Positions 442 through 62,736 of a stretch of 64,000 nt of DNA are shown here, one piece after another. The DNA lies in assembly GCF_023343835.1 (NCBI RefSeq), contig NC_064443.1:13516001-13580000 (forward strand). Direction: 5' to 3'. Position numbers and translations under genes: made by a program. Positions within the stretch are counted from its first letter, which is position 1, and each line of letters opens with the position of its first letter. The stretch comes from Lagopus muta (Eukaryota > Chordata > Aves > Galliformes > Phasianidae). The notes beneath the pieces were generated by a model. It was not told where the DNA came from. It did no database searches and saw only the letters and a program-made list of their open reading frames with translations.

Positions 442-546
442 ATATGCCAATATTTGGTCTTTGCCCGGCTCATGATGATTTCTATTTGGTGATGTGTAAC
501 CACTGTAATCAGGTCGTAAAACCACAGGCATTTCAATCACATTATG
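442..546 (+). CDS. ATXN7: ATXN7 exon with first zinc finger
   Basis: The exon encodes [16 protein letters not shown] then C-N-H-C, and ends ...FQSHY with one extra G. Acceptor AG is at 440-441 and donor GTAAGT at 547. It supplies three of the four zinc ligands (two Cys, one His) of the N-terminal finger; the fourth His comes from the next exon, 24 kb away. In yeast Sgf73 the N-terminal region with this finger links the Ubp8 module to SAGA, so this exon probably determines binding of the deubiquitinase. Confidence 0.97.
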
Positions 547-12500: not shown

Positions 12501-15500
12501 GCTTCCATACTGGATGTGTGTGCTTAGTGACAGCAGCACTCATGGTATAAATACCTTCTCATTTTTGTGTGTTCAGTGAGTAAATGTAGAAAGGAGGGCA
12601 CCAATGCTGCTCTGTTATCCTCAGACACAGGAAGCAAAGTTTATTTCTTTGCAATGGTTGACACTATTCCTGTTGTCCTTCTATTGGCTGCTTTCTCATC
12701 AGCCAGGCCCAGGATATCAGGCTCTGCAGCACAGCAGAGCTAACTCCCCCCACCTCCTGCACTGAATGATTTAATCATCCCGGTGCTACGTATAACAGGT
12801 TGCTTTTATGAAGTCAGATTACTTTTCAACTTATCAGAATGCCCATTCAGACTCCTCATTTAACTGCGGCACATCCATCCATCAGTTTCAAGGTGAAATC
12901 CCCTCAATGCTGACTGAAGTTGCTCAGAAGTCCTTGTTCATTAGAAAATAGTAAATTAAAAAAAAAAAAAAAAAAAAAAGCTGTGTTCCAGCATAGATGT
13001 CAAAATCATAGATTTTGTTATTGCAAGGCATAAAACCCAGTGCATTTCAGCAGCTGCGTGCTGTCAGCCGGCCGCTCGCTTTCTCGCCGTGTGAATGTGC
13101 CGTCATGCCTCTCGCTTCCATTCCAGCCCCAGCTCTGACACCCAGCTGCTGGGTTCCTACTGATTGGACTCTTTGTCCTCGCTCTCACTCACAAGGAAGA
13201 CAACTTACTATATTGTTCCAGGCTGGAATTGAATGGCCCGATCTCAGTCAGTTTATTTGTGGAACAAGAAGCAAAATAAGTTACTCACTCTCTTGGTCCT
13301 AAAATGAGAATAGACCAAATCAAAGACTAAGGAAGGAAAATTTGAGTTGGTAAGAAAACAAACACATCAGTGCTGGCTCCCCACATGGTAGTTTAAAGTC
13401 AAGAGTTTTGGGAACCACTAAAATCTGTTGGAGTCTTACCCAGCTTTAATGATAGGTGTCAAGTAGAACAGCATACAACAGCAACAAAGCCTCCAGAAGC
13501 ACACATGGCTGCTACTGATTTTGGCACAGGAGAAAGATGGCTTTTTAAAACAGCTCAGTGCAGGAAAATGTGTGTATGGCTGTGCTGCCTTTAATGAACG
13601 GGATGGGTGCTGGAGCTGTCAGCTGCTGGAGGAGCTGATTGCTGTGTGCCTGCCTGCAGAGATGTGGGAAAGTTGGTGTTCCAGAAATGGGTTTGAGGAT
13701 GTCTTATTTCTTTCTGAGCTCGTTGGTTGGAGGAGTCGTCTCTGGGCTTTTGTACATCTTTGTAGAAACAAACAAACCAAAAAGGCAAAACCAGCCCTCC
13801 TGAAATGATGCTTCCTGCATCTGTTTGACTGTTGTAATGCAGTGAGCAGATGCACAAAGGTATTTGCATAAGTGCATGCATATATGTCTTTCTCTTAGCA
13901 AACTTTAAGTGGAAAAGTGACTTTTTTGCTTTAAAAATGAATCTGAATGGCATTTGATAGGAGAGGAAAGGCCAGAAACTTTACCTTAGGGCGATGAGCA
14001 TTTAAAAGAAGAGCAGAAGCCACTAGCAATATGTTTCTTCCTATTCTATTTTTGTCATCAAGTACCACTATGCTTTCTTTTCTCTTCCTCTCATTCCCTT
14101 CTGCTTTCTCTTCATTTCCCCTTCCGCTTTCTCTTCATTTTCCCTCTTTAGTTTCCCCCCTTTTGCCCCCTTTCTCCTTTACTCCCTCCCTTTTTTATCT
14201 TTCTGCCCCCTTCCTTTTTTTTTCCTGCGTTTTTTTCTCTTTCTTCCTCCCCCTTTTTTTTTTTTACTCTCTCATAATTACTCAAGAGCCGCCCCAGCAA
14301 ACAATAATAGCAAGAAAAAAAAAAGCAGCCCCTCCTGCAGGGGGCCGCAGCCCGGAGCTCCGGGCGCCTGCTGGGGCCGCTGCCGGCCTGCCCGCTCGCT
14401 GTGCGAATGGGAGAGCGGCTTAACCTCCGGCCCCGCCGCGATGGCCATCTTCGATCGCCGCCGGCTCCACCTCCCCGCCCCGCTGGGCCGCCGCCAGCGC
14501 CGCCGCGACTCCAGCGCTGCCGGAGGTAAAGCCGCGGCCCGGGGCGGCCCCGGGCGGGGAGGGGGGGGGACGGGCGGGGACGGCCCGCGGCGCCGGAGCG
14601 GGGCCGGAGGAGGTGGAGCGGGGCCGTGCCGCCGGTGGACTCGGCGGATCGGAGCGGATAAGCCGAAAATGAGGATTAAACGCGAGCGGCCCGCGGGAGC
14701 CCTCCTGAAATGACATCGGGGCGATTTGGCCAAAGTTCAATAAGCGGATGGGGGAGCGGGGCTGTGCCAGCGCTGCGGTCACCGCGGGGGCTTTCCTGCG
14801 GAAATTCGGCATCCCACCCCCTTCAAATCCAGAGCGGTCGGGGTGAAAAGAGAGGGGCAGATTGCAGCGATAAAACTGCGGGTTGATTGCAATCTTGTCA
14901 GGCCTCTAGATAAATGGGCGGCTTTTAATCAGAGCGTTAATTAAAGAAAGAAACTATTAAGGACTTGTTCACTTGAGCTTGTTTTCCTGAGCTCGTTCAT
15001 CCACGTAATTCCCAAACCGGGGGGCAAATCCGTCCCTCCGTGCTGCGGGAGGAAACGGGAAGCGCGTTGGAGCGAGCGCAGCTGCAGGCTTGCTGCAAAC
15101 GCTGATGGAAAGGGCGCTGGGGCTGCACGGGCAGCGTGCTGCACTGCCGGGAGCCTTCGCAGAGCGATGGGAAAAGGCTGCTCTGTTTCGTTTGAAAGGC
15201 ATTGTTGTGCAAGCGTGCTCAGTTCGTGCCCTCGTTCGGCTGTATTGGTGACTGCTGGAAGACTTTGCTGTGCTAATGCTGTTGTACAATTTTAGTTGGT
15301 GTGTGGCCAATGTGTTCAGTGCTTTTAAACACGGGAACAGTTGGTTCGTGCCGGTAATGATTGACCATGAGTTAAGCTGCAGTGATCCTTTTTTATAATT
15401 ACAAAAATGGCCGGTGTAAGGGTGTAAAATAACATAAGGATCTGACTTCAAAAACAGCAATAAAAAGCCCCACAACTCAATTTATTCTCTTTTCCACCAA

Positions 15501-18500
15501 GGTTGCAGTTTTGGTATTAACTTCCAAGAGATTTCACATTTCAGAAAGGCGTTTGATTTAGAAACATCTTTCTGAAAAGCTTTCCTATTTGCTTTACCAC
15601 CAGTTTGTTTCCCTTTTCCACCTCTCAAAGTTGTCTTCTTCAGTCAAAACCTGTGCTGAGAAGCTCCTGCAGGGCAGGCAGGTCCCCCAGATCCACAGTG
15701 CCACCCAGGCTCCTCTGCATGGTGTTGTCAGGTGTCTGTTACTGCACTTTGGTGACAAGCCTGTCTCCTCTGGGGTCCAAAATCTCCTTGCTCATCACAT
15801 CCTGCAGCAAAAGGCCTCAGCAGGGTTTTCTTTATCTGTGCTATGGATGGCAGTGCCTGGGTGTTCTCTATTTTGTTTGACAAATGGTTTTTAAGTAGTT
15901 CTCACTCAGCATGTTTTGTAGCAGCAGGGATTGAAGTTTGCTACAGGTAAATAGCTGCAGGGAAAATGTTAAAATTCTCAAATGTGGTGCAAAGAGAAGC
16001 ATCAGCAGGATGAAAGGTGGACAGGTGTTGACTACTACATTACGTGATAAGGGCTGGTGAGCAGCCTTGGTGATGCTGGATGGGAAGAGCGTGGTGGGAA
16101 AGGCCCATCCTGACCTCTGGGTTGGCACCCACTGCCCAGGGAGTGGAGGAGTCACCATCCCAGGAGCTGTCAGAGAACCACGGAGATGTGGCACAGAGCG
16201 ATGTGGGCATGGCGCAGTACCTCCATTCAGTGGTGCTTTCATTTGTCACTGTAGCTTCTCTGAAGTTAATTTCAAACAACACATTTGTTAATAGCAAAAA
16301 TATGGCTAATTCAGTGCCTGTCTTTAATCATTTGATGCAGGTAGTGTCGTGTCGTCAGGCTGCCCAGAGATTAGTGCTCATAACGTGTGTGTTATAATCT
16401 CTGCATGGCCCGGCTACCATCCAAGACACTTGACTGTCCTTCTGTAATAACTTTTGCAATATTTCTGTTCCTGTGCCTGACAGATTTACAGGCCTGCTCC
16501 CAACCCAAAAGGTTGCATGGTGAGAAATGCATCCTTCCCTTGCCTCTGCTTGAGTCACTCAGGACAGCACACCACAAGTTAGATGTTGTCCTGCAGCCTC
16601 TTGTTCCAAGCTCTGCATTCAGCTCTGATATGCCCTGAAGACCCTGTCTCTGTTTTCCCACATTACTCCTGGGAGCTCCTCACCAGGGTCTCAGCAGCTG
16701 AAGTGAACCCAAGGGAGCATCACTAATTACAGTTTGCCCCTGCAGCATGGGGCAAAACAGTGCCTGGGCTTGGGGCTGGCAGTGCTGCACGGGTGGGGGC
16801 TGCAGGGCCATTTCCCATCGCTCAGGGGCAGCACATGTGTTAGAAAGAGTAATCCTACACCCTGAGGCATCTGATTGCAGAACTACTCGTGTGCTCTGCG
16901 TGCAAGGCTTTGGGAGGGATTAGTAACAAATACGGAAAAACTGAAAAATTAATGTTGGTAATGTGCAGTGCCTTGTGGAAAGGAAGCAGTGCACCTGAAG
17001 GTTGTTTATTTAAATATGTTTTAGTGTTGCTGGTTTTTTTGCTGCATTCTTAATAATGCTACTTGCAGTCTGTTCCCTCCCCTCCTTTCTGCGGCGTTGG
17101 TCTCTGGGGAGCAGTTCTGCTGCAGTTTTCCTATGGGGAAAGCCGAAGCCATTCCTGCTGACTTAGGATCGCCTGGTTAGAAAACCACAGCATCATCCTG
17201 GCTGTGCTGTAGCTGTGATGTTTAAAATGCATCATTTAAATAATCCAAGTTACGGTTGCAGGATTGTCTCCTTTTTGACAGCTGGTTTTAAAGGTTTGAA
17301 ATTGGTGTTGTAAGGAAAATGAGCTTTTTCTCCTACTCCGTTTTCTTCAGCAGTAACAGAAATGTGACCCTGTTTACACATAATTTCATAGCCATTAATC
17401 TAAAATATTTGCAGAGTGATCACTTGAGTGGATTTCACATCTTGTAAGTAAATCTCAAGAAAAACTTCTAATGTATGTATTTAGAAATCAGAGAGCAATT
17501 GGTTTTATAGTGTTGTAAGCAGCCAGTGCTGCTCAGTAACTACCGTAATGAAAGAAGATCCTAATGGTAGCTATTAGTATTATTCTTTTTGTTCAGAAGG
17601 ATGTGGTCAACTAACTAACCACCACACTTCTCAGGACTTGAGAAAATAATTTCCAGATGTTCAGTGTTAAATGTTGGGAAACTTGGGAGAGATGGAGTAG
17701 CACCCCAGTGCTCACGGTGAGAGTGGGGAAGGAAAAAGCCAGAGCCCTTCTCCATGCTGGTTCTCAGGTTCTGGACTTTGCTCTGATTTCTAGTGCAAAA
17801 TGCTCTGGTAAACTTGTTCTTAAAAACAAGCCAAAATGAGAGCTGGGCTAGAAGCTTAAATACATCATTCCTAACAGTCAGTGGCTTTTGGCTGAACTGA
17901 GGTTTGGATTTCATGAGGAGGTGCTGTTAAGTGTGCTGGGCCATCATCAACCTGCAGATGTGCATTATTGATGTGTCTTAAATCAGTGTGAATTAAATGG
18001 AGGGGTTTCAGAACTGGAATGATACACTGAAGTCCTGTATTAATATATATGAGAGTTTTGGATTCTGAACGGTGCATTTGTAACCGAAGCACATCTTTAA
18101 AAACCCCTTTGGTCTTTGTAATTTTGAATTTCCATAATGAATCGGTGGATGCTAATTAAAGCATAGGCAGATTTTGTGTGCTCTTTAGGGAGATTCCAAG
18201 ATGTGCATTTCCAAGATGATTGACAGAGGGAATGCTTTAGGAATTCCCATCTGGAGCAATGAGGCCTTGGCTCTGCTTAGGACTGCTGGACCACCAGAGC
18301 AGGAAATACACAGCAATGCTTCTTGTAAACAAGATACAGAAAACATATGAGAGGTAGAACTTAGTGATGATTTTGTGCCCTACCAACTTAGAAATGGCCC
18401 TGGGGCATCCACAGTCACTTCTTGGTGTATTTATTTGTCTGTTGGCTTCAGGTTTCAAAGAGGAAAGTGATTTTTCTGAGTCCTCTTCGTCAGAGAGTGT

Positions 18501-21500
18501 AAAAGTTTCCTCAAATATTCGAGTTGGAGCTGCCAAGGAGCGTTTCAGTGTGAGCAGACATTTTAAGTGGAATTGTAAAAATGGTTAATTTCTGTGGTTA
18601 GATTTTGCACTGTAATGCATGACCTGACCTGAAATTCTGTGGTTTTTTTTGCTTTGGGAGAATGAGTTTATCTTCTTTGGTGCTGCAATCTTAATGAAAA
18701 CGTAAAACTGAGTGCTGCAGTGTACGTGGTGAAGGTGTCATGTGAAAACATGCAAACCAGCAGTTTAAATCTCTGCTAGGCAAAGCAAACCTTTCAATGC
18801 ATCAAGTTGCAGAAGTGACCCCTTGGTTTTAAAATATGCTCTTCAAAATTGGTTAGATATTGCACTTCGTTGGGTTTTTGATAGCACCAGTCAGATCCAT
18901 TTTTAAAGTGGGGTTTCATCGTTGTGGCCTAATTGCCTTGTTATGGCATGGGGTTGCACACAGGCAGGGGAGACGCAGTCTGTATGTCTGATGTCCTGAG
19001 TATTTTTTGAGCAAGGAACTGTTGAGATATGAGCTTGTATCAGTATAGCTAATTCTGGCATAGTCTATGTAAAAGATGTTACATAAACCTATTTCTTAGA
19101 TAAGAAGTTTATACCTATTGCTGCTTATTTACAAGGAAGACAGTTGTGATGAGCATGGGAGCACGTGCACGTTGTGTTACTCTGTGTGTGCACTGCCCTG
19201 CCTTGTATTTCCTATGCTGCAACATCATTGCTAGGCCTCCTTAATACTTTTGCCTCTCCTGCTCAGTTGTTACTTTTCCATGAATGGAGTGACATCAGCA
19301 TACATGACAATCAGGCAAGCTTTCTTTTTGGTTTTACTAACATCGAGCATTAAACAATAACATCAGCTGCTAGTTGCAAGCAGAACATTTTTTATGAAAC
19401 AGGAAGTCCCTCTAGAGACATGACAGATTGTGCTGCTGCCAGTCAGCCCTTGGCGGTCTGTCCTGCTGATGCTTGGTCTCTGTGAGAATTCTCTTCTGCA
19501 ACTTTCTTGTTGGAGTGTAAAATAAGACTTAGTGTAGATGCTGCCTGCTCGGCTCCGTGTCGGTATAACACCACCCAGCTGGACACAGAGCGACCTCATC
19601 CTGACTGCAGTGCAAACAGAACTGATCAGATGATTAAAGGGATGTCAGTGGAAGATTAAGGCAGAATCTTGGGTATCTGGGTCCTGTGATTAGTGCAGGA
19701 TAATGAAGCAGCAGTAAGTGAGCGAGCAGCAGATGAAGGCCCTGTGCAGGCGATTGCTCCCAACCAGCTGCACGCTGCCAGGATGGCATCGAAGGAGGAG
19801 CATTTTGATTGATGGGCCTTGATTTGAGCTCCTGGGTTCCTCTTGCAGCATCTTTGTGGATCTGTTTTTTGGGTTTGTTTGTAATTGTCACGGTGAGGTC
19901 AGTGTGGCTGAGGATTCAAGCTGGCAGAAGAGGGTTGTGTCTTAAAAAAAAACCTTTTTCAGAGCACAGGACTTTGGGTACTCCTGGTCAAATCAGGATT
20001 TACTGCTCAAAATGCTCTTCTGAAGTTGTGGACTTCATTTGTTGAAGAAGTGGAGTAAGATTGACTCCTCTGCCTTTGTGTACATCACTTGTGATTGTCT
20101 TCTGTTAAATTCATAGAGTTATCGAATGGCCTGGGTTGAAAAGGACCACAATGATCATCCAGTTTCAACCCCCTGCTATGTGCAGGGTCACCAACCACCA
20201 CACCAGGCTGCCCAGAGCCACATCCAGCCTGGCCTTGAATGCCTCCAGGGATGGGGCATCCACAGCCTCCTTGGGCAACCTGTTCCAGTGTATCACCACG
20301 CTCTGAGAGAAAAACTTCCTCCTAATATCTAACCTAAACCTCCCCTGTCTCAGTTTAAAACCATTCCCCCTTGTCCTATCACCATCCACCCTTGTAAACA
20401 GCCGTTCCCCCTCCTTTCAAGTACTGAAAGGCTGCAGTGAGGTCTCTCTGGAGCCTTCTCTTCTCCAAGCTTCTCCAAGTGGCTGTGCAGCAGCCACAGG
20501 CCTCAGCCACTTCATCAGACTCATGCTGGGCTTCCTCCAGTCCCAGTCTGTGTCCTCATGGCATGCACTGCATCCCATTTTTTGGAGCAATTAGAAAATT
20601 AGTTCTCCAAAACGACAGTAGAAATGTGCACTGGAGAAAATTTATCCTCAGGTGAATGATGCTTGTTTTAATATGACTGTGCTAATTCATCTCTGAAATG
20701 ATAAGTCATACAGTAGATCAGCATGATGAAAAAAAGATAAGCTTGTTTCAAGTAGCACTTATCGTGCTTTTAGTTTAGATTAGACATGTAGATAATAGTT
20801 ACAGAAGTGTAAGCTTATGCTTTGTTTCAGTAAACTTATTTAGTTCTGTACTCTGAATAATACCCTTACACCTATGTTAACCTACACTAAAACTGAACTG
20901 TGACTGGAGTCACAACATTTTTCATTGGATTAAACTGGCCCTGTGGGTTTGAATGGGTGTTGTTGAGTTTTAGTGATGGCTCTGCCAGCACTGACACAGG
21001 TCAGTTTGACTCCTTGCCCAGTACTTACGTAAGCAGTCAGTATTAAAAAAGTGGGTTTATGAAACTCGATCTGTACATCGTGTTTGCTGCCCAAAGCTAT
21101 TAATTGATGCACTTGGAGAATGAACACCACAGAACACTTCCTGAAGTTTGGGGACTAAGCATAGATCTGGGAAGAAAAATTGGAGAACTTTTACTCTGAT
21201 AATATACTTATTTTTGTTAGGCGTACAGCAAATTAGTATCTTAGGAAAATGATTTTCTCTATGAAAAGTATATTTTCTCTTATGTTACTGTGGAAATAAG
21301 GTTATAGACCAAAATAAATCTGAGTGTTTACAGCCTAGAAGCAGTAACCAAATGTGATGAGAAACTGTTCTCTTTCCTCCTCCTTTCCTTTCTTTTCCAG
21401 GTTAGTTAACTAAACCTGATAAATATAAGCTGTGCTTAATACTAAACATTAAGTCACATTCTACACAGTGCTGTGAGTTGGATTTGCACCTCATCACTGA

Positions 21501-24500
21501 TTACATTGGGGACAAAATGCTGTCGTTCAACTTGCTTTAATGTTTGCGAATCTTCTGCGTGTCTCCTGCAAGTCTGAATGGGATCAAGGGGAACTTCCCA
21601 ACTGTTTATCCAGAGCAAAAGCTCCTTTTGCTTTAAAAAACAAACAAAAACCTTCCCGTGAGATTTTAGAGATGGGAGCCGCCTTGGACAGGTGCAGTAC
21701 TTGAAATATCACTGTGAAGTTTTGCAGGAGCAATCATAACATTAAAAAGTGCTGCTTTTCTTTCAAGAGTTGTATGAAGGGAAGGTGCATGTGTGTTAAC
21801 TTTTAAAATCCAAAAACTGAGCACCTGGAGATGATCTTATTTTGAAGTACTTTCAAGTCGAGTTAGAATTAATGGCATATGGGAACTACATTAGATTGGC
21901 AAATGATTAGCAGAATTTATCATTGATATGCTGGCATAATGTGCACAGTGGTCTTGGTTATTCAGTGACAGCCTGTGTAGTAATTTGTCTGTGAAGAGAA
22001 TATGTCAGTCCATCAGCAAATACACTGGAAATGAGTGAAGTCCTCACAGTTTTAATTTTATCTCTTCCCTTTAGTGCATCATAACATGCACTGGAGGTTT
22101 TCGTAGGGAACACTAACAGGACTGGCAGCTCACCTCTCTTGCATGCTATTTTATATCATTCTTGGGATGGAAAAATCGTAGATCCAGAGGCTTTTCCATG
22201 CCCTACATTATGATGTATTGTGATGTGTAAAAGCAGTGATAACCTGATCTTGAAGCTCAGACCTCTTATTTAAGCACCCACATGAAGATCTAAGGCTTTG
22301 TTTTGGTACAGGTTTCCCTCAAATACACTGATTCTGCTGTGGCAGATTTGTCTGTAACAGATAACTGGGGACACAACCAGAAGACTCGTGTAGCAGGGAA
22401 CGCTGTGCCTCACACTGCAGTGAGAACAGTTCCCCTAATAATGAGCAGTAGGTAATGGATTGAATCAGACTGTCTGCCCTGTCACTGAGAAGTCTGCTAA
22501 CATCCCAAGGATATCTGTGCTTACTTGTGCTGTGACCACCTGTGTTTAGCTAAATTAAGACACTTCAGCAGTTCTGGCAGAGAAAACGTCTTTGTAATGC
22601 TGCTGTGTATGTTGTGAATGAGATGTTCAGTACTGGGAATGTAATTTTCAGAAGTCTCAGAATTCCAGAAAATGCTCATTTGGCTTTTCTTTGCACTCCA
22701 AATCATACAACTGTTTGTAGAATGGAAATTGTCTCTGACAGACAACAGTCCTGCGTTTTGATGAGCCATTAGCCTTCGCTTTCCTAGGTCAATGTTTTTG
22801 ATTATCAGCAGTGACAGATTTGCCTCTTTCATTAACTCACGTGTATTGAGATTGGTGCTACTAAACATTCATGCAGATAGCAGTCAGTAACATCTCTGTC
22901 TGGAGCTAATTGAATGGTACCAACTGAAGCTGCCAGGAGAGAAGGGTGCATACCATTTGAATCAATAACACAGATTAATATTTTGCCCAGTTTGTTCCTA
23001 ATGCTGGGAGGCAAGGAGCTGCTCAGTCTTATCCTAGGTTCATTCTCTTCTCTCCTGCCAAGCTGTTTCCAAGGAAGCAACATGAAGCAACATTCTCCTT
23101 TGCAAAAGGGGGGAAAAACCCAAAACAAACTCCAAATATTACATTAGCGGGCTACTAAATTATTAGAGATTGTTTGTAACTCTATTAAGTACTCAGACTT
23201 TGGATTTTCTAAATACACAGAAGCTGGCAGAGTATTGAGCAATTTTTCTCATTATCTCATGGAGTAATCTCATAGGGTGTAGCATTGCTGAACTAATGGC
23301 CCTCAAATAGTAACTTATCAAAGCTGCTCAGGGATTCTTGCCATTGCTATAAAAAGACTTTTGGCAATAAGCAGTATGTCATATTAGAAGCACAGCCATT
23401 GACTAGAATATAAGCATGCTAACATACATGAGAACTCTTCAATGGCACACGGTTCTAGAAAACTAAGCAGATCATCCTGAATGAACATCACAGGTTCCAG
23501 CTTCCAGCTGTGAGTGAAGTTCTTACCAGCCATCGTCCCCGTATCGTGTGATTGCTGTACTTAGGAGGGGAGGGAAAAACAGATCCCATAAGCAGAACGT
23601 GGATATATTACTTTGTATTTTCCATAGTGTCACAGACCTGTGCACAGGTTGTGCTGCACTTGGCTTTCACTTTGTTGTAACGTCACAAGTAGCCTGCTTC
23701 CTTGGCAGCTTAAGTAAATTTAAGTCAGAATGTGTAAAGGATCCAGTGGTGGACGTGGGCACCATTAACAATGCCAGCTGGAAGTGTTAGCCACAGATGG
23801 ACCTGTTAATACTCTGTTCTCTCTTAGATCCATGGTTTGCATATACTTGATTGCCAGAGGGACATCTCTAAGCAGGTGTTGATTACGTGCAGGGATCGTT
23901 TAGGAATCACAGGTGTCCAAAGATCAGCTGAGCAAATGCTCTGTTAGCTGTCCATGTAGGCAGAGCTGGGAACTCCGTGCAGCTGTTGAGTATTCTGTGT
24001 CTGAGAATTCATTATCCCAAAAAAGTACTTTTGAATTATACGCTATTTTAACTGCAGTGGTTCTAGAAATGTGTTAATGGTTAATATTTAATGCTGACAC
24101 TTTAATGTTAATTAAATCATTTCTTTTCCAACATGTCTATTGATAAAACCTGACTGTTCAAATGCTTGGATATCCTTTCTCAAAGAAGAATATACATTGC
24201 TCCTTTTCCTGCTAAATAGAATTCTTCTTTACGTTGGTCATATATTGAAAGGATTGATAGAATCAATAAGAAAACCTGAAGGCATGTAACTCACTGCTTC
24301 AGCCCTTGTTCTCAGGGGCATTGACACTGAAGGTCTGGTAGAACACACGAGAAGATCATCAGAAAGTGAAATTTTGTTTTTGCTCCAATATCAGTTTGAT
24401 CAATAGGAGACGTACTAACAGTGAATAGTTACTGCTTGAGGAAATGTGGTATTGAACCTTGTTTGGCCTGGGGATTGAGGTCTCTCTGCTTTGTGTTTCT

Positions 24501-27500
24501 GAGTTCTGCTCTGTAAGATGGAGAATGGGGAGTGTATCGTAAAAGCTGAGCTGTAGCGACTGAGCAATGGAGCTCACAAAGTTAAAAGAGACTCCTTTAA
24601 CTGACTGGGGACCAGCAGTGAATGGAGCCTCATGGATTACAGGGACTCCTCACTGCTCCGTGTGGCAGAGGATCTCCCAAGCCAGCAAAGGAAAAACGTT
24701 AATGTAGTAATTGACAGTATGAAGTATTTAAGAATTGTTTCTGTATGGGCCTTGCCAATTTAAACCCCCCCCCCTTCTGTTTCTTTTTTCTCCTCTTCAG
24801 AAAGAAGACACAGCTCCTCCAGCAAGCCGCCTTTGACTCCTCCCTCCTCTTCAGTATTTTCCCTCATTTCATCTTTCCCTTCAAAAAACAAAGGTAGCGG
24901 CGGAAGTGGGAGCAATCGTTCATCCAGTGGAGGTACTAGTGCATCATCATCATCATCATCAAGTTCCAAGTTGTTGAAATCACCCAAAGACAAGCTGCAG
25001 ATCAGCGGAAACAACAGGTTAATGCATCCGGTACAGCATAGCAAAGTTCCCCATGATAAAATGTGAGTATGTGTGTTGAGAAAGAATTGAGCGTTAATAC
25101 TTGCATAAAAACTGCTGTATCAGTAGAATTTCTTGTTGTTTCAGAGGGTTTTCGCTTTGAGAGATCACTTTAAACTCCACCAGATCTCTTTGAGCAGCCT
25201 AGTCTAAGCTGATAGGTAAACTAATGCAATTGTTGAACACAGCACTCGCCAAGGTGCATCTTGAGTCACTGTAAATAAAGGCTGTGCTACTAGGGGTCTT
25301 CATTCTTTGATCTAGTCTCTATACCTCCATCATAGAGAAGTTTCTGAAGTCACTGATGACTCTGAAATACTTAAGAAAAGGTAGCAGAAAGCACAGAAGG
25401 AATGGGTGGACACCATCAAAGATGTGAAAATACGTAAGAAGAAGAATAAAAATACTAAAACTGAAAATTAAGGATGAAGGTCTAAATTTGTATTATTGAT
25501 AGATCTGAGTATTGAGTAATACAATATGTCAAGTACTTTTTGTAATCTGTGATGCTTATACTATCATCTGCAATTTTTTCTGTTTATTTTTCATAAACAA
25601 TAGTATGACTCCATCTGTCAAAGTGGAAAAGATTCATCCAAAGATAGATGGTGCCCAACTGAAAGCTGCTGTTGGTCCAACTTGTTCTACTACTGTGAGT
25701 TCCTCAATAAAGACTGGCCTTAATTGTCCCTCAATACCAAAGCCACCCTTGCCTTCCCCTGGACAGATACTGAATGGTAAAGGTCTTCTCTCTGTGCCTC
25801 CATTTTTGGAAAAGAAACCTGAAGAAAATACAAATAATAGGAAATTTTTACATAAAAGATTGTCAGGTAATTGCTTTTAAATATTACTTGCTATATTATT
25901 TGTGTACGTGTAGAAATACACATATGGAAATAACCTTTAGAAGCATATTAATATTTATTCTTAGAACACCTAACTTGTAATGAAGTACACTTACGTATTA
26001 GAACTTGAATTTACGATTAGACAGGTTCATAAGGGATGCAAACAACTTGAAACGTGGCTGTTGCTTTCAGAAACCACCTGATGTTACAGTTATCAGTTTG
26101 TGTTTTAACGTTTCTCTCTTCCACTGTCTTTAAAGAGGTTTAATTTTCCTTCTTTCCTATATGAAAACATGGTATTACAGTGCAGTAATTTTGGTTGTTG
26201 GTAGAATTATAGAAAAGCAAAAAATCACCCTGTGTTCATATTTATCATGACATTTAAATATGTTTTTTGTTTTGCAAGATCATTTGTGTACGTAAAAAAC
26301 AAGTAAATCCTAATGCAGCTGAGATAGTCCTGCTTTGTGGTCTCTTTCAGCTGTGAATTTCTCAATTCTGTTTGCAGATTTGAGAACTGTGTCAGCACGT
26401 GGTAAATCTGCTGAGAGTAAATAAATGCATTTGTACAGTTTTATTGTTCATATCTTTGTGTACCTTTGCATGTGTCCTACCTGAAAACATTGGCAGAATA
26501 GTTAAATTCTGTGAAGAAAATGTTAGTATTTCAAAATGTCTTTATTGTGACTTTACAATGATGGGATGTTTGTGCATCTTTGACAGAGAGAGAATTTGAT
26601 CCTGATATATACTGTGGTGTCATTGATGTGGAAACCAAGAAACCCTGTACTAGGTCTTTGACCTGCAAGGTAGGATGTCTTAATCAGAGTAAGATTTTGT
26701 AAGGTTTACGTTTGATTTCTGGGGGAATGTAACAGAACACAGGAAGGTACAAGCTTTGGCAGTCAGTAATTGCCTCTGTAAATGCTTCCTCTCAAAGCAC
26801 ATTGCCAGCAACCAAGAAAGAGCTGTTTTCAAAATCCAGTTAATTATTTATCCAAAAACATATTTCTTAAAGTAACCTTCAGTTCTTCATTATTGGGTAA
26901 ACCCTTTAAACACGGATGCTGGCACTGGAATGCTTCTAACTCCACATGTATGCAGCACAGCCAAGCTGTCTCCTTCTCTTTCTCCAAGCAAAACCTGCAG
27001 CAAATACTTAGCAGGTGTTTGTGCAAACGTTAGTGCCACTGGATGGACCCCTGCAACTTACTCAGAAGGGAGTGTGTGAGGATGCTGTGAGGTACAGCTT
27101 GGGGTCAAACTGAAATAAAGCAATCCTTAAGAACTTTCCATCAGATAAAATGTGTTCTTTGGCTGAAAAGTTTTTGAGGGAGAAGTGGGTATCAGTCAGT
27201 TCCAAAGAACTGAAAATCCCAATCCCCTACAATTGTGTAATGATTAGGCACTCTTATGAAAAGCAGCTAAACTGTTAGTAGGGAAAGTCTCAGGTAAAAA
27301 AGCCCTGTTCAGCACAAAGGTAAACGAAGCTGTCACTAACACACTGCAGGAACTGAACTTTGGTAATTTCTTCTTTTGAAAAGCAATTTGAAACAAATTT
27401 TAACTCAGTTGCTATTCTTCCTTATTTCGTATCAAGCAGGCATATGATCACACCACCCAAACTGTCCATAAGTCTGTTCCATAAGTCATTCTTCTTCTTT

Positions 27501-30500
27501 TTTTTTAACTAAGCCACAAGCGTGGTGATGGTCTGTATTCTAGAGCTCTGGACATGTGTCTTGAGTGTTTGATTTCCACAGATCTAATGGCTTGGGATTA
27601 ATGATTTATTCATGGATTTGCAGACACATTCCTTAACGCAGCGGAGGGCTGTACAGGGTCGAAGAAAACGATTTGATGTGTTGTTAGCTGAGCACAAAAG
27701 CAAAACCAGGGAAAAGGAACTTCTTCGACATTCGGATCATCATCAGCAGATGCCCCCTCTCAGGGAACCACATCCCTCACCTACTAAAACTTCCCAGGAG
27801 CTGCACCAAAATTCTCATGGAGTTACTCTTACAGAATCAAAGCCTTTATTACCTAATAAACCCAAACCTCACCCCCCCAGTCTTCCAAGGTAAGAAAAAT
27901 CAGTATATCCAGTAGTATGAAATTAATACCGATTGCTTTGTCATGTGGATTTTGAAAGAGAGAGGGAGTTCTTTGGGACAGGGTAGCATTTTTGCTCTAG
28001 CCCTGGTGGCGGTCTGTCTGCAATTAACGATTGCACGCTGACTTGTAACTCATAGCAAGAAGGGTTGGGAGTTCTAAGTAGTAGAAGCTGACTTGCATCA
28101 ATTTAAACATTTTTCCAACAATTGCTGCTTTTTCAGGGGCACAACACCTCCTGTCCTTCCCCTAAGTAGGTATGTTATGAGACTCTGGATCATATCAAAT
28201 GACTGTTAATGTGAATTTCCTTCTGTCAGTACTAAAATGTCCATAAGTGCTTATTGCCAAGCCTTGCCTCAACCTTTACTGCTTCCCTTGCCCAGGCCTC
28301 CAGGCTGTCCAGCCCAGCACAGTGGAAATGCCCCCAGCGATTCTCCTTCAGTCCACGAGTCCCCTCACCCTCCCTTGCCTGCAGCTGAGCCAGCATCTCG
28401 GTTATCCAGTGATGAGGGAGAATGTGATGAAAAAGAAGAGCCTGTTGAAAAACTGGATTGTCATTATTCAGGTCATCATCCTCAACCAGCCGCTGTATGT
28501 TTTAAGTCAAAGTTAACCTTGGTCTCTCACTGGCTCTGAATTTGTAAACAAGCAACTTGGGGGTTTTAAGGGTGGATTTCTATTATGTATATATTTTTTC
28601 AGGTTTTAAAGTACTTATTTTCTTACTGATTGATAGTGGAGGCTGATTTATTGTTACTGTTTTTGGCAAAATGTTGACTGCTTCACTGAAGAAGCAAGTT
28701 AAACCTTAAGGTATAACCTTAGCAGTAGATGCACCTCTCCTGATTTCTGCCTGTTAAAACCACTTAGTTTACATTAAATCACAAACTTCATTGCCTGGCT
28801 AGGCTAAAAGCAGGTAAGCTGACAGCTACTCAAAAGAGATGGTTGCGTGTACAAAATTTAAGATAGTTGTTACATTTTCATCTCTGCAGTGTAACATCTG
28901 TTCTATCCTTGCTTTAGACATCTAGAAATGATAATAATTTTGCATGTATGTATAAACAAATGTTTTGTTACTGAAAGTAGAAAACGCCAGTAAAAAAATC
29001 TGTCTTTTCAGTTTTGCACATTTGGTAGTCGGCAGATTGGAAGAGGTTATTACGTGTTTGATAAGCGGTGGAACCATATTCGATGTGCACTTAACTTCAT
29101 GGTGGAGAAGCATCTTAATTCGCAGATGTGGAAGTGAGTACAAGTGGAAGAGTTCTTGTTCTTGTTGGTATTTGTAGAAATACACAAAACCTGTAACTCT
29201 AGTTAGAGAAAAATAACCCCTCCTTTAGATTAGTGAAGTCAAAGATGGATGCTTTCTGTTTTTGTAGAATCACAGAATGGCCTGGGTTGAAAAGGACCAC
29301 AATGATCATCCAGTTTCAACCCCCCTGCTATGTGCAGGGTCACCAACCACCACACCAGGCTGCCCAGAGCCACATCCAGCCTGGCCTTGAATGCCTCAGG
29401 GATGGGGCATCCACAACTTCCTTGGGCAACCTGTTCCAGTATTTCACCACCCTCTGAGTGAAGAACTTCCTCCTAAATCTAACCTAAACCTCCCCTGTCT
29501 CAGTTTAAAACCATTCCCCCTTGTCCTATCCCCATCCACGCTCGTAAACAGCCGTTCCTCCTGTTTATAAGCTCCCTTCAACTATTGGAAGGCTGCAGTG
29601 AGGTCTCCCTGGAGCCTTCTCTACGCTAAACACGCCCAGTTCTCTTAACTTTTCATCATCGTTCTCTTGCAACTATTAAGTGCCAGCAAGATATTTTAGT
29701 GCTGGAGTGACTGCATCTCTTGATGATGCTAAATATCATCCCAAAGAATGGGAGCTACCTGTTTCTTTCTTTTCCTGTTTACCCACAGGAAAATTCCACC
29801 AGCATCTAGTAGCACAGCAGCAGTTCGTGCACCGCACCGGACAAATGCGATACCTGCTTCACAGTATGGGGTCAGCACGACGGGTTTCCTCCTCCCCACC
29901 ACTGTTATGTCCTCTCCAGCTCTGGTGTCTCCTTCCTGTACGTCTCTGAACAATAAATCGGTACCATCACATGGAACTACACTAAATGCAAATCCCGCTA
30001 CCTTGGGTGCAGTGGATCCTGTCTGCAGTATGCAATCAAGACAAGTGTCTTCGTCTCCTTCAACACCTACAGTGCTTTCCTCTGTACCTTCACCTATGCC
30101 CAGCAAACCTCAGAAGTTGAAATCCAGCAAATCTTTTAAACCTAAGGAATCTTCTGCTGGCAGTGGCACCTGTAACAGCACCGGCAGCGTCAGCAGCGGC
30201 GGCGGCTCAGGAAAGAAGCGTAAAAACAGTTCCGCACTGCTAGCACCTTCTCATTCCACAGAGTCCTTTAGAAAAAACTGCGTGGTTAACTCTGGAAACT
30301 CTGGGACCTCCTATCATCCGTCGGTGACATCTTCGTCCCACAGCGTTGGCCTCAATTGTATGACTAGCAAAGCTAACTCCGTTAGCCTCAAACATGACCA
30401 ATCAGGGAGGGGTCCTCCTACTGGAAGCCCTGCAGAATCAATAAAAAGAATGAGTGTGATGATGAACAGCAGCGATTCCACTCTCTCCTTAGGGCCATTT

Positions 30501-32042
30501 GTTCATCAGTCCAGTGAGCTGACTGTGAACTCGCACAGCGGTTTTTCACATTCGCATCCTTCCCTAGACAAACTAATAGGGAAGAAAAGAAAGTGCCCAC
30601 CTGGTTCTAGCAGCATAAACAGCAGCAGCAGCAGCAAGTCAAACAAAGTTGCCAAATTGCCATCGGTGAATAACGTTCACGCAAAACACACTGGTGCAAT
30701 CCCAGGGACACAAGGACTGATGAACAATTCTCTTCTTCATCAGGTAGGAACTTTTGTCTTGAAATAAGCCAGTGCGAACGCGTCTCTCCGTGTGCTGATA
30801 TTTAGATGTGCTCTGTTAATTACTGATAACCAATTTCAGACGCTTCAAGGAAAAGACAGTCCTCTTACTTGCTCGTTCTCTTTGAGTCTTTTTTTGTAGG
30901 ACATTTGTGCAGGATTTTTACAAACGCTGTAGTATGAAGTGTGAGTTTGTTTATGTGTTTTTGAAGCCACCTTGAACACAGCATCCCAGGCTCCCACAGA
31001 TGCTCTTCCTGTCAATCGCTCTCAGATGAAATTCAATTCTTGCATTTAAAAACAAATGATAGTAATTATAAAATCTTGCAGCCAGCCATGGGACTGAACT
31101 GAATGTCTCAGCCTAACTTCTTGTTCTCGTGTCAGTAATAAACACTCTACGAAGTGGAACATAATGGTGCTGATAACAGAACTGTGATAAAATAAGCTTA
31201 TTATCCCAAGGTGTCACTGACTAACTTCTTAGTATTAACGAGATTAAATTTTATAAACAAGATAGATAAAAACCTCTGTAGTCTGTTAACAAACATTGAC
31301 TATAAAAGAAGCAGATCTCATGGGTATGTAATTTTAAAAAAGAAAAAGTTAGTTTGGAGTTTTACTCTTTTGAACAGGTTGCACTGGACTAGAATTGGGA
31401 AAGAAGTTTCTTCATAAGTTAAAATGAGCTTAAACTTCTTAATGCTTCAGATTGGCTTGAAGGATCATTTGGAGGGGTAAAATAATTTCATACGCAATTA
31501 AAAGTGTAGAGAAGATGGAATTTTAGAGGGCACATTTGGAACTAGATTTTTCCAGATGAAAACTAAAGGCTCTTTTTGTTTCCTGTGGTACTAAAAGCCT
31601 GAGATCTGAGCGTGCCAAGAGGTAGGAGGTCAGCGAGATCTTTTTCAGATCAGCTGCTGAATTTAGAGTTTCAGCTGTGAAGAAGACTTTCACCACTTGT
31701 GTTTAAGATAACAAACAATCATTTATTTGACTGAACCTTATTTTTGGGCTTAGCTAACAGTTGTTACTTCAACTGCAATAAGAAATAAAGGAAAAATGCA
31801 ATTTGGAGGAAGGAAGTCATGTCCAAAACCACTCTAACTTGAGAAAGCACTAGCTTGAGCATTGTGAAGTTTCAGATGAGCCAACTGCATATGAGTGGTG
31901 TGTCAGATTATGCCTGCTGATTCTCCCCAGAATATGCTCTCAATATCCAGAAAATGTATTTTAGGAGCTCCTGCTATAACAGCCTGGCTCACTCATACTT
32001 CTCTCCCATTTATTTGCTCAAAAGCCAAAGGCACGTCCCTGA
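442..32042 (+). CDS. ATXN7: Ataxin-7, 3' part of gene (nine coding exons joined)
   Basis: Ataxin-7 is a nuclear subunit of the SAGA coactivator; it anchors the deubiquitinase module that removes ubiquitin from histone H2B. Its polyglutamine expansion causes SCA7 in humans. The coding exons 442-546, 24801-25062, 25604-25866, 26587-26669, 27624-27889, 28296-28494, 29012-29133, 29789-30743 and 32025-32042 join with consistent phase and no stop until PKARP-TGA, giving about 757 residues. Counting from the first Met in the window, a zinc-finger-like C-X2-C-X11-H-X4-H uses C18, C21, H33 and H38. The SCA7 domain has C219, C230, C236 and H239. Basic nuclear-localisation-type runs GKKRKNSS and GKKRKCPP lie in the large exon. 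The sequence follows human ataxin-7, as I recall it, along its whole length. The first coding exons are outside the window, so the CDS is 5' partial. Confidence 0.97.
3571..3588. repeat. (ATAG)n short tetranucleotide repeat
   Basis: There are four to five tandem ATAG units inside the ATXN7 intron. It is a minor microsatellite with no evident function. Confidence 0.85.
8287..8333. repeat. (TGGGA)n pentanucleotide repeat
   Basis: Eight perfect TGGGA units lie at 8291-8330 with partial units on each side. Two overlapping frames read through it as repeated GMGWD-like peptides; these are repeat artefacts, not genes. It is intronic in ATXN7. Confidence 0.95.
12958..12979. repeat. A22 homopolymer
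   Basis: An uninterrupted run of 22 A lies in the ATXN7 intron. It could be the tail of an old retro-inserted sequence or simple slippage; no element body is recognisable next to it. Confidence 0.8.
14040..14275 (+). repeat. Pyrimidine-rich tract upstream of intronic CpG island
   Basis: About 235 bases are nearly all C and T on the plus strand (mixtures of TTTCTTTTC, CCCTTT and CCTTCC). It sits directly upstream of the CpG island at 14.3 kb. Such tracts can form triplex DNA or bind pyrimidine-tract proteins. The 130-codon frame across it (14031-14423) is a Ser/Pro/Phe-rich artefact. Confidence 0.7.
14290..14830 (+). promoter_or_regulatory. ATXN7: Intronic CpG island, candidate internal ATXN7 promoter
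   Basis: This stretch is very rich in G+C and CpG, against AT-rich flanking intron. It holds two GGGCGGGG Sp1-type boxes (14552-14559, 14572-14579), a G9 run (14561-14569), and GCCATCTT at 14444-14451, the reverse complement of the YY1 core AAGATGGC. These are typical of a TATA-less housekeeping promoter. It overlaps a candidate first coding exon (14441-14525). Transcription from here is inferred; CAGE or 5' RACE data would decide. Confidence 0.7.
14441..14525 (+). CDS. ATXN7: Candidate alternative first coding exon of ATXN7
   Basis: An ATG in a strong context (GCCGCGATGG) opens a frame encoding [16 protein letters not shown] and a further 12 residues ending SSAAG, plus one extra G. It is followed by a good donor, GAG|GTAAAG, at 14526. 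The 85 nt leave phase 1, exactly what exon 24801 (AA AGA AGA CAC) needs, so splicing restores GAA and continues as ERRHSSSS. The joined product would be 750 residues, without the polyglutamine region and without three of the four ligands of the N-terminal finger. I recall a shorter human ATXN7 isoform with its own N-terminus, which may be the counterpart. An out-of-frame upstream ATG at 14407 could compete if it is within the transcript. Confidence 0.62.
14831..24800 (+). other. ATXN7: ATXN7 large intron, 3' half
   Basis: This is intronic sequence between the CpG island and exon 24801. The one clear element is the CR1 fragment at about 20111-20485. A moderately GC-rich shoulder of the island reaches about 15200. 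The intron ends in a C/T-rich tract and CTTCAG at 24795-24800. No further coding exon or RNA gene could be recognised. Confidence 0.8.
20111..20485 (-). mobile_element. CR1 LINE 3' fragment (antisense to ATXN7)
   Basis: The plus strand reads as the reverse complement of an avian CR1 3' end (ATCGAATGGCCTGGGTTG, then the AACCTGTTCCAG region). On the minus strand a frame at 20165-20389 encodes the C-terminal tail of CR1 ORF2, with the characteristic [20 protein letters not shown]. It is 5'-truncated like most CR1 copies. It is very similar to the copy at 29266. Confidence 0.93.
24801..25062 (+). CDS. ATXN7: ATXN7 exon (ERRHSSSS ... poly-Ser)
   Basis: The exon begins after CTTCAG and ends at AT before GTGAGT (25063). 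It starts by completing a Glu codon and encodes [20 protein letters not shown], giving the last His of the first zinc finger, and later [16 protein letters not shown]. It contains a run of six TCA codons (poly-Ser, about 24949-24966). It is the shared acceptor for the upstream exon 442-546 and for the candidate alternative first exon. Confidence 0.97.
25604..25866 (+). CDS. ATXN7: ATXN7 exon ([13 protein letters not shown])
   Basis: The exon starts after AATAG (AG at 25602-25603), completing an Ile codon, and encodes [13 protein letters not shown], the Pro-rich [20 protein letters not shown], and ends RKFLHKRLS plus G before GTAATT. It is the Ser/Pro-rich linker before the SCA7 domain. It follows human ataxin-7 closely. 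Confidence 0.97.
26587..26669 (+). CDS. ATXN7: ATXN7 exon, SCA7 domain zinc ligands
   Basis: The exon encodes [20 protein letters not shown] followed by TRSLTCK. Three Cys of the SCA7 zinc site lie here, and the His (T-H-S) is the second residue of the next exon, giving C-X10-C-X5-C-X2-H. The SCA7 domain is the ataxin-7-specific zinc domain, reported for the human protein to contact nucleosomal histones. Donor is GTAGGA at 26670, phase 0. Confidence 0.97.
27624..27889 (+). CDS. ATXN7: ATXN7 exon, rest of SCA7 domain
   Basis: The exon begins [20 protein letters not shown], completing the zinc site and the basic helix of the SCA7 domain. The RRKRF segment is a likely nuclear localisation signal. 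The rest is His/Pro-rich. Acceptor is TTTGCAG at 27617-27623 and donor GTAAGA at 27890; it ends with AG of a split Arg codon. Confidence 0.97.
28296..28494 (+). CDS. ATXN7: ATXN7 exon (PPGCPAQ ... HHPQPAA)
   Basis: The exon starts after TTGCCCAG with G completing Arg, then [17 protein letters not shown]. It contains an acidic stretch [18 protein letters not shown] and ends HHPQPAA before GTATGT. The content matches the human protein between the SCA7 domain and the conserved [17 protein letters not shown] block. Confidence 0.97.
29012..29133 (+). CDS. ATXN7: ATXN7 exon, conserved [17 protein letters not shown] block
   Basis: The exon encodes [20 protein letters not shown] and then [20 protein letters not shown], one of the best conserved segments of ataxin-7 outside the zinc domains. 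Acceptor is TTTTCAG at 29005-29011. Donor is GTGAGT at 29134, leaving AA of a Lys codon that is completed 655 bp downstream. Confidence 0.97.
29266..29665 (-). mobile_element. CR1 LINE 3' fragment in ATXN7 intron
   Basis: The plus strand starts AGAATCACAGAATGGCCTGG and continues through the same sequence as the copy at 20111, differing at scattered positions. It reads as CR1 in reverse orientation. It ends about 120 bp before the acceptor of the large ATXN7 exon at 29789. Its freshness by eye suggests a relatively recent insertion within birds. Confidence 0.93.
29789..30743 (+). CDS. ATXN7: ATXN7 large Ser-rich exon
   Basis: This 955-nt exon completes Lys and then encodes [20 protein letters not shown] through [11 protein letters not shown], with donor GTAGGA at 30744. 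It contains two basic clusters, SGKKRKNSS and IGKKRKCPP, likely nuclear localisation signals, and the conserved [20 protein letters not shown]. Where I recall a long poly-Ser run in human (after KKRKNSSPLL), this sequence has only SHSTESF, so the tract is shorter here. A short (AGC)5 tract at about 30619-30633 encodes Ser. Reading on into the intron would add VGTFVLK and a stop at 30765-30767. Confidence 0.97.
30744..32024 (+). other. ATXN7: Last ATXN7 intron
   Basis: The intron separates the large exon from the six-codon terminal coding exon. It contains a second strong acceptor, TTTTTTTGTAG ending at 30899, followed in frame by [10 protein letters not shown] and a stop. An alternative terminal exon there is possible but unsupported by homology. 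The true acceptor CTCAAAAG at 32017-32024 is comparatively weak. Confidence 0.8.
32025..32042 (+). CDS. ATXN7: ATXN7 terminal coding exon (PKARP stop)
   Basis: CCAAAGGCACGTCCCTGA encodes PKARP and the stop, identical to the C-terminus of the main human isoform as I recall it. It joins ...SLLHQ in phase 0. Upstream is a C/T-rich stretch (CTCTCCCATTTATTTG). Because only six codons are involved, assignment rests on exact C-terminal identity plus phase. Confidence 0.9.
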   Translation, partial: PKARP

Positions 32043-39005: not shown

Positions 39006-44647
<5,642 letters not shown>

Positions 44648-44708
44648 GGCGGCGGGGCTCGGAGCGGCTCGGGACGGCGGCGGGCACCGGGGCGGCGGCG
44701 CGGCCCAG

Positions 44709-44719
44709 TGACTCAGCCG
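44709..44719 (-). promoter_or_regulatory. CNC-MAF (NFE2L1/NFE2L2) antioxidant-type element
   Basis: GTGACTCAGCC matches ten of eleven positions of RTGACTCAGCA. It lies about 62-72 bp upstream of the PSMD6 start codon. Proteasome subunit genes are known targets of NFE2L1, which raises their transcription when proteasome activity falls. Site use here is inferred from motif and position. Confidence 0.65.
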
Positions 44720-44863
44720 CGACGGGCGGAAACGGCGGCCTCACTTCCGGCGCCGCCGCCGGCTCTGCAGCGTCCCCTTTCGGGCCGGAGGTGTGCGAGA
44801 GCTCAAAGAGAGGGAGTGCGCATGCGTAGAGTGGAAGTAGCGCGTGGAGGGGGGTTGTGGCAG

Positions 44864-44875
44864 TGCGCATGCGCA
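44864..44875. promoter_or_regulatory. NRF-1 palindrome TGCGCATGCGCA
   Basis: Perfect match to the nuclear respiratory factor 1 consensus, with a near match TGCGCATGCGTA 47 bp away at 44817-44828. The palindrome has no direction and could serve PSMD6 or a divergent transcript. Confidence 0.7.
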
Positions 44876-45414
44876 GAACGGGGCAGAGTGGGCGTGCGTG
44901 GTCTATAGGGGGTGCACGTGCAGCAGTGCTGTGTTCGTCCTGTGGCGCTCAGCGCCTGCGGCGGGAAGAGCTGCGGTTCTGTTGCGGGCTGTGAGGAAAA
45001 GCTTCTCCTTCCCCCATTTCTGGGTTTGCCACCTTTCAGTTCGCCATGAAGTCAATCCTTGGGAATGAGAGGAGAGTAAGAGAGTCGATTTTCCCGAGTG
45101 CAGGTATTGCCAATACTCCGTGTTGTGCTTGGTAACAAAGTGAAACACTGGTTGATTAAACAAAACGGCACTTCTCGTCTGTAAATATTTGCCCACACTT
45201 TGCATACTTATGTACGTTTAAGGGATAACCAGCAGTGCAGGAGCTGGCTGCGTGCATGTGATGCTCCCTTAAATACGTATAGCAAGCAGCAAGGCCTGTG
45301 GTGACTGTAATTCATCTTACAAGGCTCTGTGTCATAGAGAATCTATACCGTATGGATCGGTGGAGGAGGTTTTTCTCCACTGTGGACTGTAGCTGACTGC
45401 TGCCCAACTCGGTG

Positions 45415-55560: not shown

Positions 55561-55872
55561 CCTTCCCTTCCCTTCCCTTCCCTTCCCTTCCCTTCCCTTC
55601 CCTTCCCTTCCCTTCCCTTCCCTTCCCTTCCCTTCCCTTCCCTTCCCTTCCCTTCCCTTCCCTTCCCTTCCCTTCCCTTCCCTTCCCTTCCCTTCCCTTC
55701 CCTTCCCTTCCCTTCCCTTCCCTTCCCTTCCCTTCCCTTCCCTTCCCTTCCCTTCCCTTCCCTTCCCTTCCCTTCCCTTCCCTTCCCTTCCCTTCCCTTC
55801 CCTTCCCTTCCCTCCCCTCCCCTCCCCTCCCCTCCCCTCCCCTCCCCTCCCCTCTCTTCCCCTCCCTTCCCA
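55561..55872. repeat. (CCTTC)50 array with (CCTCC)n extension
   Basis: Fifty perfect CCTTC units run from 55561 to 55810, then eight CCTCC units to 55850 and a degenerate end to about 55872. All frames stay open on both strands, giving false proteins (repeated PFPSL on plus, REGKG on minus). The perfect core suggests recent expansion; assembled length may be inexact. Confidence 0.98.
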
Positions 55873-61879: not shown

Positions 61880-62736
61880 TTAGGATATGATACAGTTTTT
61901 GCTCTTCTGTCTTTTCCGGCTGTGCAACTGTCCCCTGCCACCCAAGGTGGAAGACTTGGGCATGCTGTAGGAGCCGTACTTGTGCAGCAGCTCCTCGCTG
62001 GTCACGTACCGCAGGCGGGCGGGTTGGGGGATCGGCTCCCCGAGGAAATAGCCCTCGTTGTCAGACTCGGAAGAGGAGGAGCACGTCGAGCACCAGTCGT
62101 ACTCGGCAAAGTAGGGCCCCCACCGCTCGCCCAAGTGGTTCTGCAGGGCGAGGTCTGACACCGTCCTGGGACAGTGGCCGTAGGCATCCCTGCGGGGACC
62201 CTGCTCCAGGCTCTCTCTGCAGCTCCTCTGGTGCATGAACTGATCGTAATCCTCCCTAGCTCGCAGCGAGGGCCTCTCCTTCAGTCGGCAGCACTGCTCA
62301 CTAGCCAAGTGCAGCGCGTTATCCGAGCGGGAGCGCCGGGAGCGCCGCGGCCGGTGCGGGCGGTAGTGCCGCTCATCGTCCCGCAGTGGAGTTCGCCGGC
62401 GCGTGCGCTCGCTCATGGGGGCATGCCTGGTGCCATCCTGCGCCGCCAGCTTGGCCCCGGGCGTCCCGCTGCCGTAGTCGAAGCTCTGGTGCAGGCGGCC
62501 ATGCGCCGGCCGCTCACGGTAGCCCATGGGGCTGGCCAGGTTGTGCAGGTTGGGCTCCAGGTCTTGGTACTGCTGCACCGAGAGCAGGCTGCGGACGGAT
62601 TCGGCGCTGCGGAACTGCACGGAGGAGTTGAGAGTCCCCATGGTGCTCAGCTTCTCTGAGACGTTCATGCCTGAGTCTTTGCTCAGGTCGGGCATGGAGA
62701 AGCGGGAGAGGTGTTCCTGGCGCTTGGCTCCGCCAT
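61880..62736 (-). CDS. PRICKLE2: Prickle-like protein 2, last coding exon
   Basis: PRICKLE2 is a PET-LIM protein of the planar cell polarity pathway, also found at neuronal synapses. This exon starts after CTCTCTGCAG (minus strand), completes a split codon, and encodes 284 residues from [18 protein letters not shown] to NCIIS-stop. Features: Arg-rich [20 protein letters not shown], conserved [20 protein letters not shown], an acidic Ser/Asp/Glu cluster after [11 protein letters not shown], and the polybasic SRKRQKSKN before the CaaX box CIIS. A terminal Ser suggests farnesylation, which in Prickle proteins promotes membrane association. The PET and LIM domains are encoded by exons right of the window. 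It matches the human C-terminus closely as I recall it. Confidence 0.97.

Follow-up and report, generated by a model that had tools for sequence, protein, structure and literature searches.

A candidate alternative first exon of ATXN7 in an intronic CpG island of Lagopus muta

A CpG island inside an intron of ATXN7 in Lagopus muta probably acts as an internal promoter that yields an N-terminally distinct ataxin-7, with the exon at position 14441 serving as the alternative start, as judged from the genomic sequence. The window (the whole 64,000-nt stretch of DNA that was analysed, C14:13516001–13580000) holds the downstream portion of ATXN7 on the plus strand, followed by PSMD6 on the minus strand, and exon 14441, which is real as sequence, sits in the island within a 24,254-bp ATXN7 intron (547–24800). 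In the proposed mechanism the island at 14.2–15.3 kb would be an internal CpG-island promoter of ATXN7, RNA would begin upstream of 14441 and be translated from the ATG at that position, and splicing from 14525 to 24801 would give a 750-residue ataxin-7 whose N terminus is distinct, whose SCA7 domain is retained and from which domain I is missing. Transcription, splicing and translation of this form are predictions. A first-pass annotation had read the locus as an alternative first exon; this reading is partly supported, with start codon context, phase, island, product and the position of the intron's sole qualifying start–donor pair in the island all in its favour, and with the strength of the donor overstated. 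The features are collected in Table 1.

Table 1. Coordinates of the candidate exon, the island and the ATXN7 exons in the window
Feature	Position	Strand	Remarks
Canonical ATXN7 exon with domain I	442..546	+	ends ...QSHY + 1 base, phase 1
Intronic CpG island, putative internal promoter	14205..15314	.	1110 bp, GC 0.611, o/e 0.95, 98 CpG
Upstream out-of-frame ATG	14407..14409	+	weak context, C at -3
YY1-like element CGATGGCCATCTTCGA with core GCCATCTT	14439..14454	.	overlaps start codon ATG 14441
Putative alternative first exon, coding part	14441..14525	+	28 arginine-rich residues + 1 base
Donor GAG/gtaaag	14526..14531	+	PWM 3.17 (human frequency weights), without G at +5
First common downstream exon	24801..25062	+	begins within codon of human E167
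ATXN7 exon	25604..25866	+	its end encodes first SCA7 domain residues
ATXN7 exon	26587..26669	+	SCA7 domain
ATXN7 exon	27624..27889	+	remainder of SCA7 domain
ATXN7 exon	28296..28494	+	
ATXN7 exon	29012..29133	+	
ATXN7 exon	29789..30743	+	
Terminal coding segment	32025..32042	+	PKARP*

Start codon, frame and donor

The plus-strand ATG at 14441 lies in the context ...GCCGCG ATG G... (sequence 14401–14540), with G at -3 and G at +4, and was rightly described in the first-pass annotation as strong. The frame that it opens runs for 85 nt up to the donor after 14525, and the earlier count of 28 codons plus one base, fitting the phase of exon 24801, proved correct to the base: the donor phase is exactly that required by the common exon, which is directly preceded on its acceptor side by CTCTTCAG, and the canonical domain I exon has the same end phase (phase 1).

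Donors were scored using human frequencies as weights, with no trained model. The score of 3.17 after 14525 compares with -0.72 to 7.12 for the eight other ATXN7 donors of the window, seven of which are higher, and with 4.38 and 8.02 for two ATXN7 donors upstream of the window. A donor is thus present where one had been called, and calling it good went too far; it is moderate, usable but not strong. It is the sole donor scoring at least 2 in 14281–15400, ranks among the best 2.0 percent of the 3645 GTs on the plus strand, and scores above the first donor of PSMD6 (2.48).

The GC counts by codon position across the 28-codon frame are 23, 18 and 25 of 28, an order that coding sequence usually shows and that weakly favours coding. 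Without ATG 14441, the next in-frame methionine of the spliced frame is residue 103. The upstream ATG at 14407, absent from the first-pass annotation, counts against the proposed start: if included in the RNA, it would open an overlapping frame of 71 codons. The first 30 bases of exon 14441 occur once in the genome (1.03 Gb, 165 contigs), and hence no retrocopy with that exact sequence is present there. Bacterial or viral contamination was considered and rejected, as no relatives were found in those collections (pattern of first bases; first 115 residues).

Spliced product

Exon ends were placed by hand using homology and splice sites, the exons having been located with a human ataxin-7 sequence, and the alignment was confirmed independently by PDB chain 7ktr_N (human ataxin-7, 892 aa). 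The spliced exons (85 + 262 + 263 + 83 + 266 + 199 + 122 + 955 + 18) sum to 2253 nt including the stop, giving 750 residues, which reproduces the size proposed earlier. This product aligns with 7ktr_N from human residue 166/167 through the C terminus. The canonical form, assembled by adding the upstream exons identified in this genome, has 864 residues, and the alternative form would carry 28 residues in place of canonical residues 1–142.

SCA7 (PF08313) is present at residues 199–260 of the 750-residue form (E 5.8e-25), also supported by structures 7ktr_N and 2kkr_A, and a Pfam search of this form at E up to 1 returned nothing besides SCA7. Domain I (human 132–166) is encoded in exon 442–546, in which no Pfam family reached its curated cut-off, and is absent from the 750-residue form according to the exon translation and the alignment with 7ktr_N.

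The canonical start codon lies ~36 kb upstream, at C14:13494786, within a CpG island of its own (13493595–13495622). The canonical start exon (C14:13494786–13495035, outside the window) reads MSARAAGDVRREQRRAAAARQRQRRPRHGEGG..., and the polyglutamine tract of human ataxin-7 is not there.

CpG island and promoter-like features

The island claimed in the first-pass annotation was recovered, and its CpG o/e of 0.95 stands against 0.33 for the whole window. GC skew changes sign around the donor, from -0.15 over the 245 bp before it to +0.31 over the 245 bp after it, and in 60-bp bins the switch (-0.33 to +0.42) falls at 14521. In PSMD6, whose first coding exon also lies in the window and in a CpG island, skew is -0.12 from ATG to donor and then +0.31, and the canonical ATXN7 start exon is without such a flip (+0.14, then -0.05). 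An excerpt of PMC3882496 reports that, at GC-rich promoters, skew is positive immediately downstream of the start. Of all window positions, 3.5 percent show a jump that equals or exceeds the one at donor 14525, and within the island the skew jumps most at 14335 rather than at the donor.

No TATAAA was found on the plus strand of 14001–15400, and GGGCGG or its complement is present in this interval. The names given to promoter motifs, including YY1 for the core GCCATCTT, are presumptive. Since the YY1-like site lies across ATG 14441, a promoter element alone could explain those bases. A tract of 89 percent pyrimidine (14040–14270) lies just upstream of the island and extends into it. The promoter island of PSMD6 (44158–45132) contains GCGCATGCG-type sites.

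Chance expectation

Start–donor pairs were counted with a filter that takes an ATG with a purine at -3 and G at +4, followed within 400 nt of open frame by a phase-1 donor with a score of at least 3.16, a threshold that equals the candidate's own score and so favours the claim. The intron (547–24800) contains one such pair on the plus strand, that of ATG 14441, and none on the minus strand. Across the whole window three were found on each strand, so about one pair is expected by chance per intron of such size. The evidence is accordingly that the intron's single qualifying pair sits in the island, rather than that it exists: the island makes up ~1.1 of 24.3 kb of the intron, or about 1 in 20. 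When the donor threshold was lowered to 2.4, 1.5 and 0, the intron counts (plus/minus) became 1/1, 3/2 and 6/4, and the pair of ATG 14441 was the sole one inside the island at all three settings. With looser ATG context the intron held 3–44 pairs on the plus strand and 1–27 on the minus strand, with one and none, respectively, in the island. The filter is not sensitive, as the first coding exon of PSMD6 fails it owing to its donor score and to a C at ATG +4.

In Markov-1 sequences of island composition (5000 runs), a strong-context phase-1 exon arose in 7.3 percent for the full island and 2.2 percent for its 520-bp core; the corresponding values were 18.5 and 5.7 percent when any phase was accepted, and 23.9 and 6.4 percent for phase 1 with any ATG context. 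Sliding 1034-bp stretches of the window (overlapping, both strands) contained such an exon in 24 of 504 cases. No such exon, in any phase, was found on either strand of the window's two other large islands or on the minus strand of the candidate island.

These counts bear on a competing account, in which the island does act as an internal promoter but produces RNA that is non-coding or reaches ATXN7 via a different 5' exon; the 28-codon frame would then be a by-product of stop-poor GC-rich sequence. Long chance frames do occur in the island (two on the minus strand, of 151 and 130 aa, and a plus-strand ORF of 130 aa running in), such an exon arises in 2–7 percent of the Markov sequences, and the start codon is overlapped by the YY1-like element. 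The location of the intron's sole qualifying pair within the island and the lack of any other donor scoring at least 2 in 14281–15400 argue against this account, which we consider unlikely.

Comparison with the ATXN7L1 paralogue

The corresponding intron of ATXN7L1 (C1, minus strand) is also phase 1 and ~38 kb long, and five stretches within it satisfy the CpG island criterion. The largest of these, C1:13713020–13713477 (o/e 1.26) and 13721187–13722117 (o/e 1.01), are possibly internal promoters of the paralogue. Strong-context phase-1 pairs number one at a donor score of at least 3.16 and three at 2.4 or above, and the presence of one pair at the higher threshold in this intron too indicates that such pairs are not rare. 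The three comprise 13720026 (10 codons, donor 4.38, outside islands), C1:13715810–13715852 on the minus strand (14 codons, MAAVPRGRTAQGDR, phase-1 donor 3.14) and 13722093 (15 codons, donor 2.44, at the edge of an island). The island around the 14-codon pair is marginal (234 bp, o/e 0.58), and the pair shows no skew flip (+0.21, then +0.02). None of the three was judged a counterpart of exon 14441, and no clear counterpart exon was found in the paralogue.

A peptide search with the alternative N terminus, covering three regions and then the window, returned a 22-residue match, IFNKRNLSLKTPSGLRPRRKNT, at C1:13725484–13725419 (minus strand; 24.3 bits, 45 percent identity). This bit score was reached by 0/300 and 13/4000 shuffled peptides and in 0/200 randomised 60-kb sequences. 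The match is not taken as support, since no ATG is adjacent to it, it falls outside every listed island, and inspection by eye shows no phase-1 donor where it ends.

Some intronic CpG islands give no stable product, and the five island-criterion stretches in the homologous ATXN7L1 intron, found without a clear exon, would fit an enhancer or orphan CpG island from which no stable ATXN7 RNA arises. The directional GC skew resembling that of PSMD6 and the phase-matched exon speak against such an element at 14205–15314, and we regard it as quite improbable.

Relation to known ATXN7 forms and possible function

An internal promoter with an alternative start exon is an ordinary and common gene arrangement, and public gene sets may already contain this exon. 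Intragenic CpG-island alternative first exons of vertebrates likewise combine an island, an ATG of their own, a phase-compatible donor and common downstream exons, and the candidate exon does not differ from them in structure. Here the CpG island lies within the host gene, far from the main start, and a start codon, an open frame and a donor in the phase of the common exon are present.

A short human isoform with a separate N terminus, presumably RefSeq isoform c of about 747 aa, would be a close parallel. In that case the predicted product would resemble it in near-equal length and in a distinct N terminus whose junction falls at the same position, human E167. No description of a short ATXN7 isoform was found among the matches listed from open-licence PMC papers, and none is given in excerpts of PMC10676324, PMC9515312, PMC7760973, PMC9359700 and PMC12528612. 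NM_001128149 is mentioned a single time, as a label for ATXN7, in an excerpt of PMC3671971.

Human ATXN7 has an alternative promoter near the CAG exon, associated with the antisense RNA SCAANT1 (Sopher et al. 2011, as reviewed in passages of PMC7760973 and PMC10676324). That promoter and the putative one here are alike in being a second promoter inside ATXN7. They differ in position, as the human promoter is placed 5' of exon 3 (excerpt of PMC10676324), whereas the putative one follows the domain I exon and would eliminate the whole N terminus.

According to an excerpt of PMC8080568, Sgf73 residues 1–104 are part of the smallest active form of the yeast module, and a C-terminal fragment links the module to SAGA; the N-terminal part anchors the deubiquitinase module in the yeast and fly work covered by passages of PMC8080568 and PMC6693919. 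Because this anchoring part is missing from it, the short form would occupy the place of ATXN7 in SAGA without holding the deubiquitinase module. A figure legend in the available part of PMC10676324 describes the SCA7 domain, kept in the short form, as essential for association of the module, and this counts against an N-terminal anchor. The sources thus disagree on which ataxin-7 domain holds the module, and we therefore only infer that the short form would be unable to do so.

If expressed, the short form would be a natural ataxin-7 without the N terminus, the site of the human CAG expansion, and with the SCA7 domain and C terminus kept. It would bear on how the deubiquitinase is held in SAGA, and on which ataxin-7 forms are left after silencing of the main promoter or of the CAG allele. 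A broader and distinctly speculative extension, which we hold to be doubtful, is that the internal promoter is a trait of vertebrate ATXN7 whose product lacks the deubiquitinase anchor, such that cells, by choosing between promoters, could tune the amount of deubiquitinase-holding SAGA in a way that does not depend on the disease-linked N terminus.

Other features of the window

The window has no Rfam match at the gathering threshold. The coding exons of PSMD6 span 39009–44647 on the minus strand. A (CCTTC)n array of 62 copies with 97 percent matches occupies 55561–55871. At 61880–62695 a minus-strand ORF of 271 residues, ending in KNCIIS, lies in a GC-rich stretch and is probably the last part of PRICKLE2.
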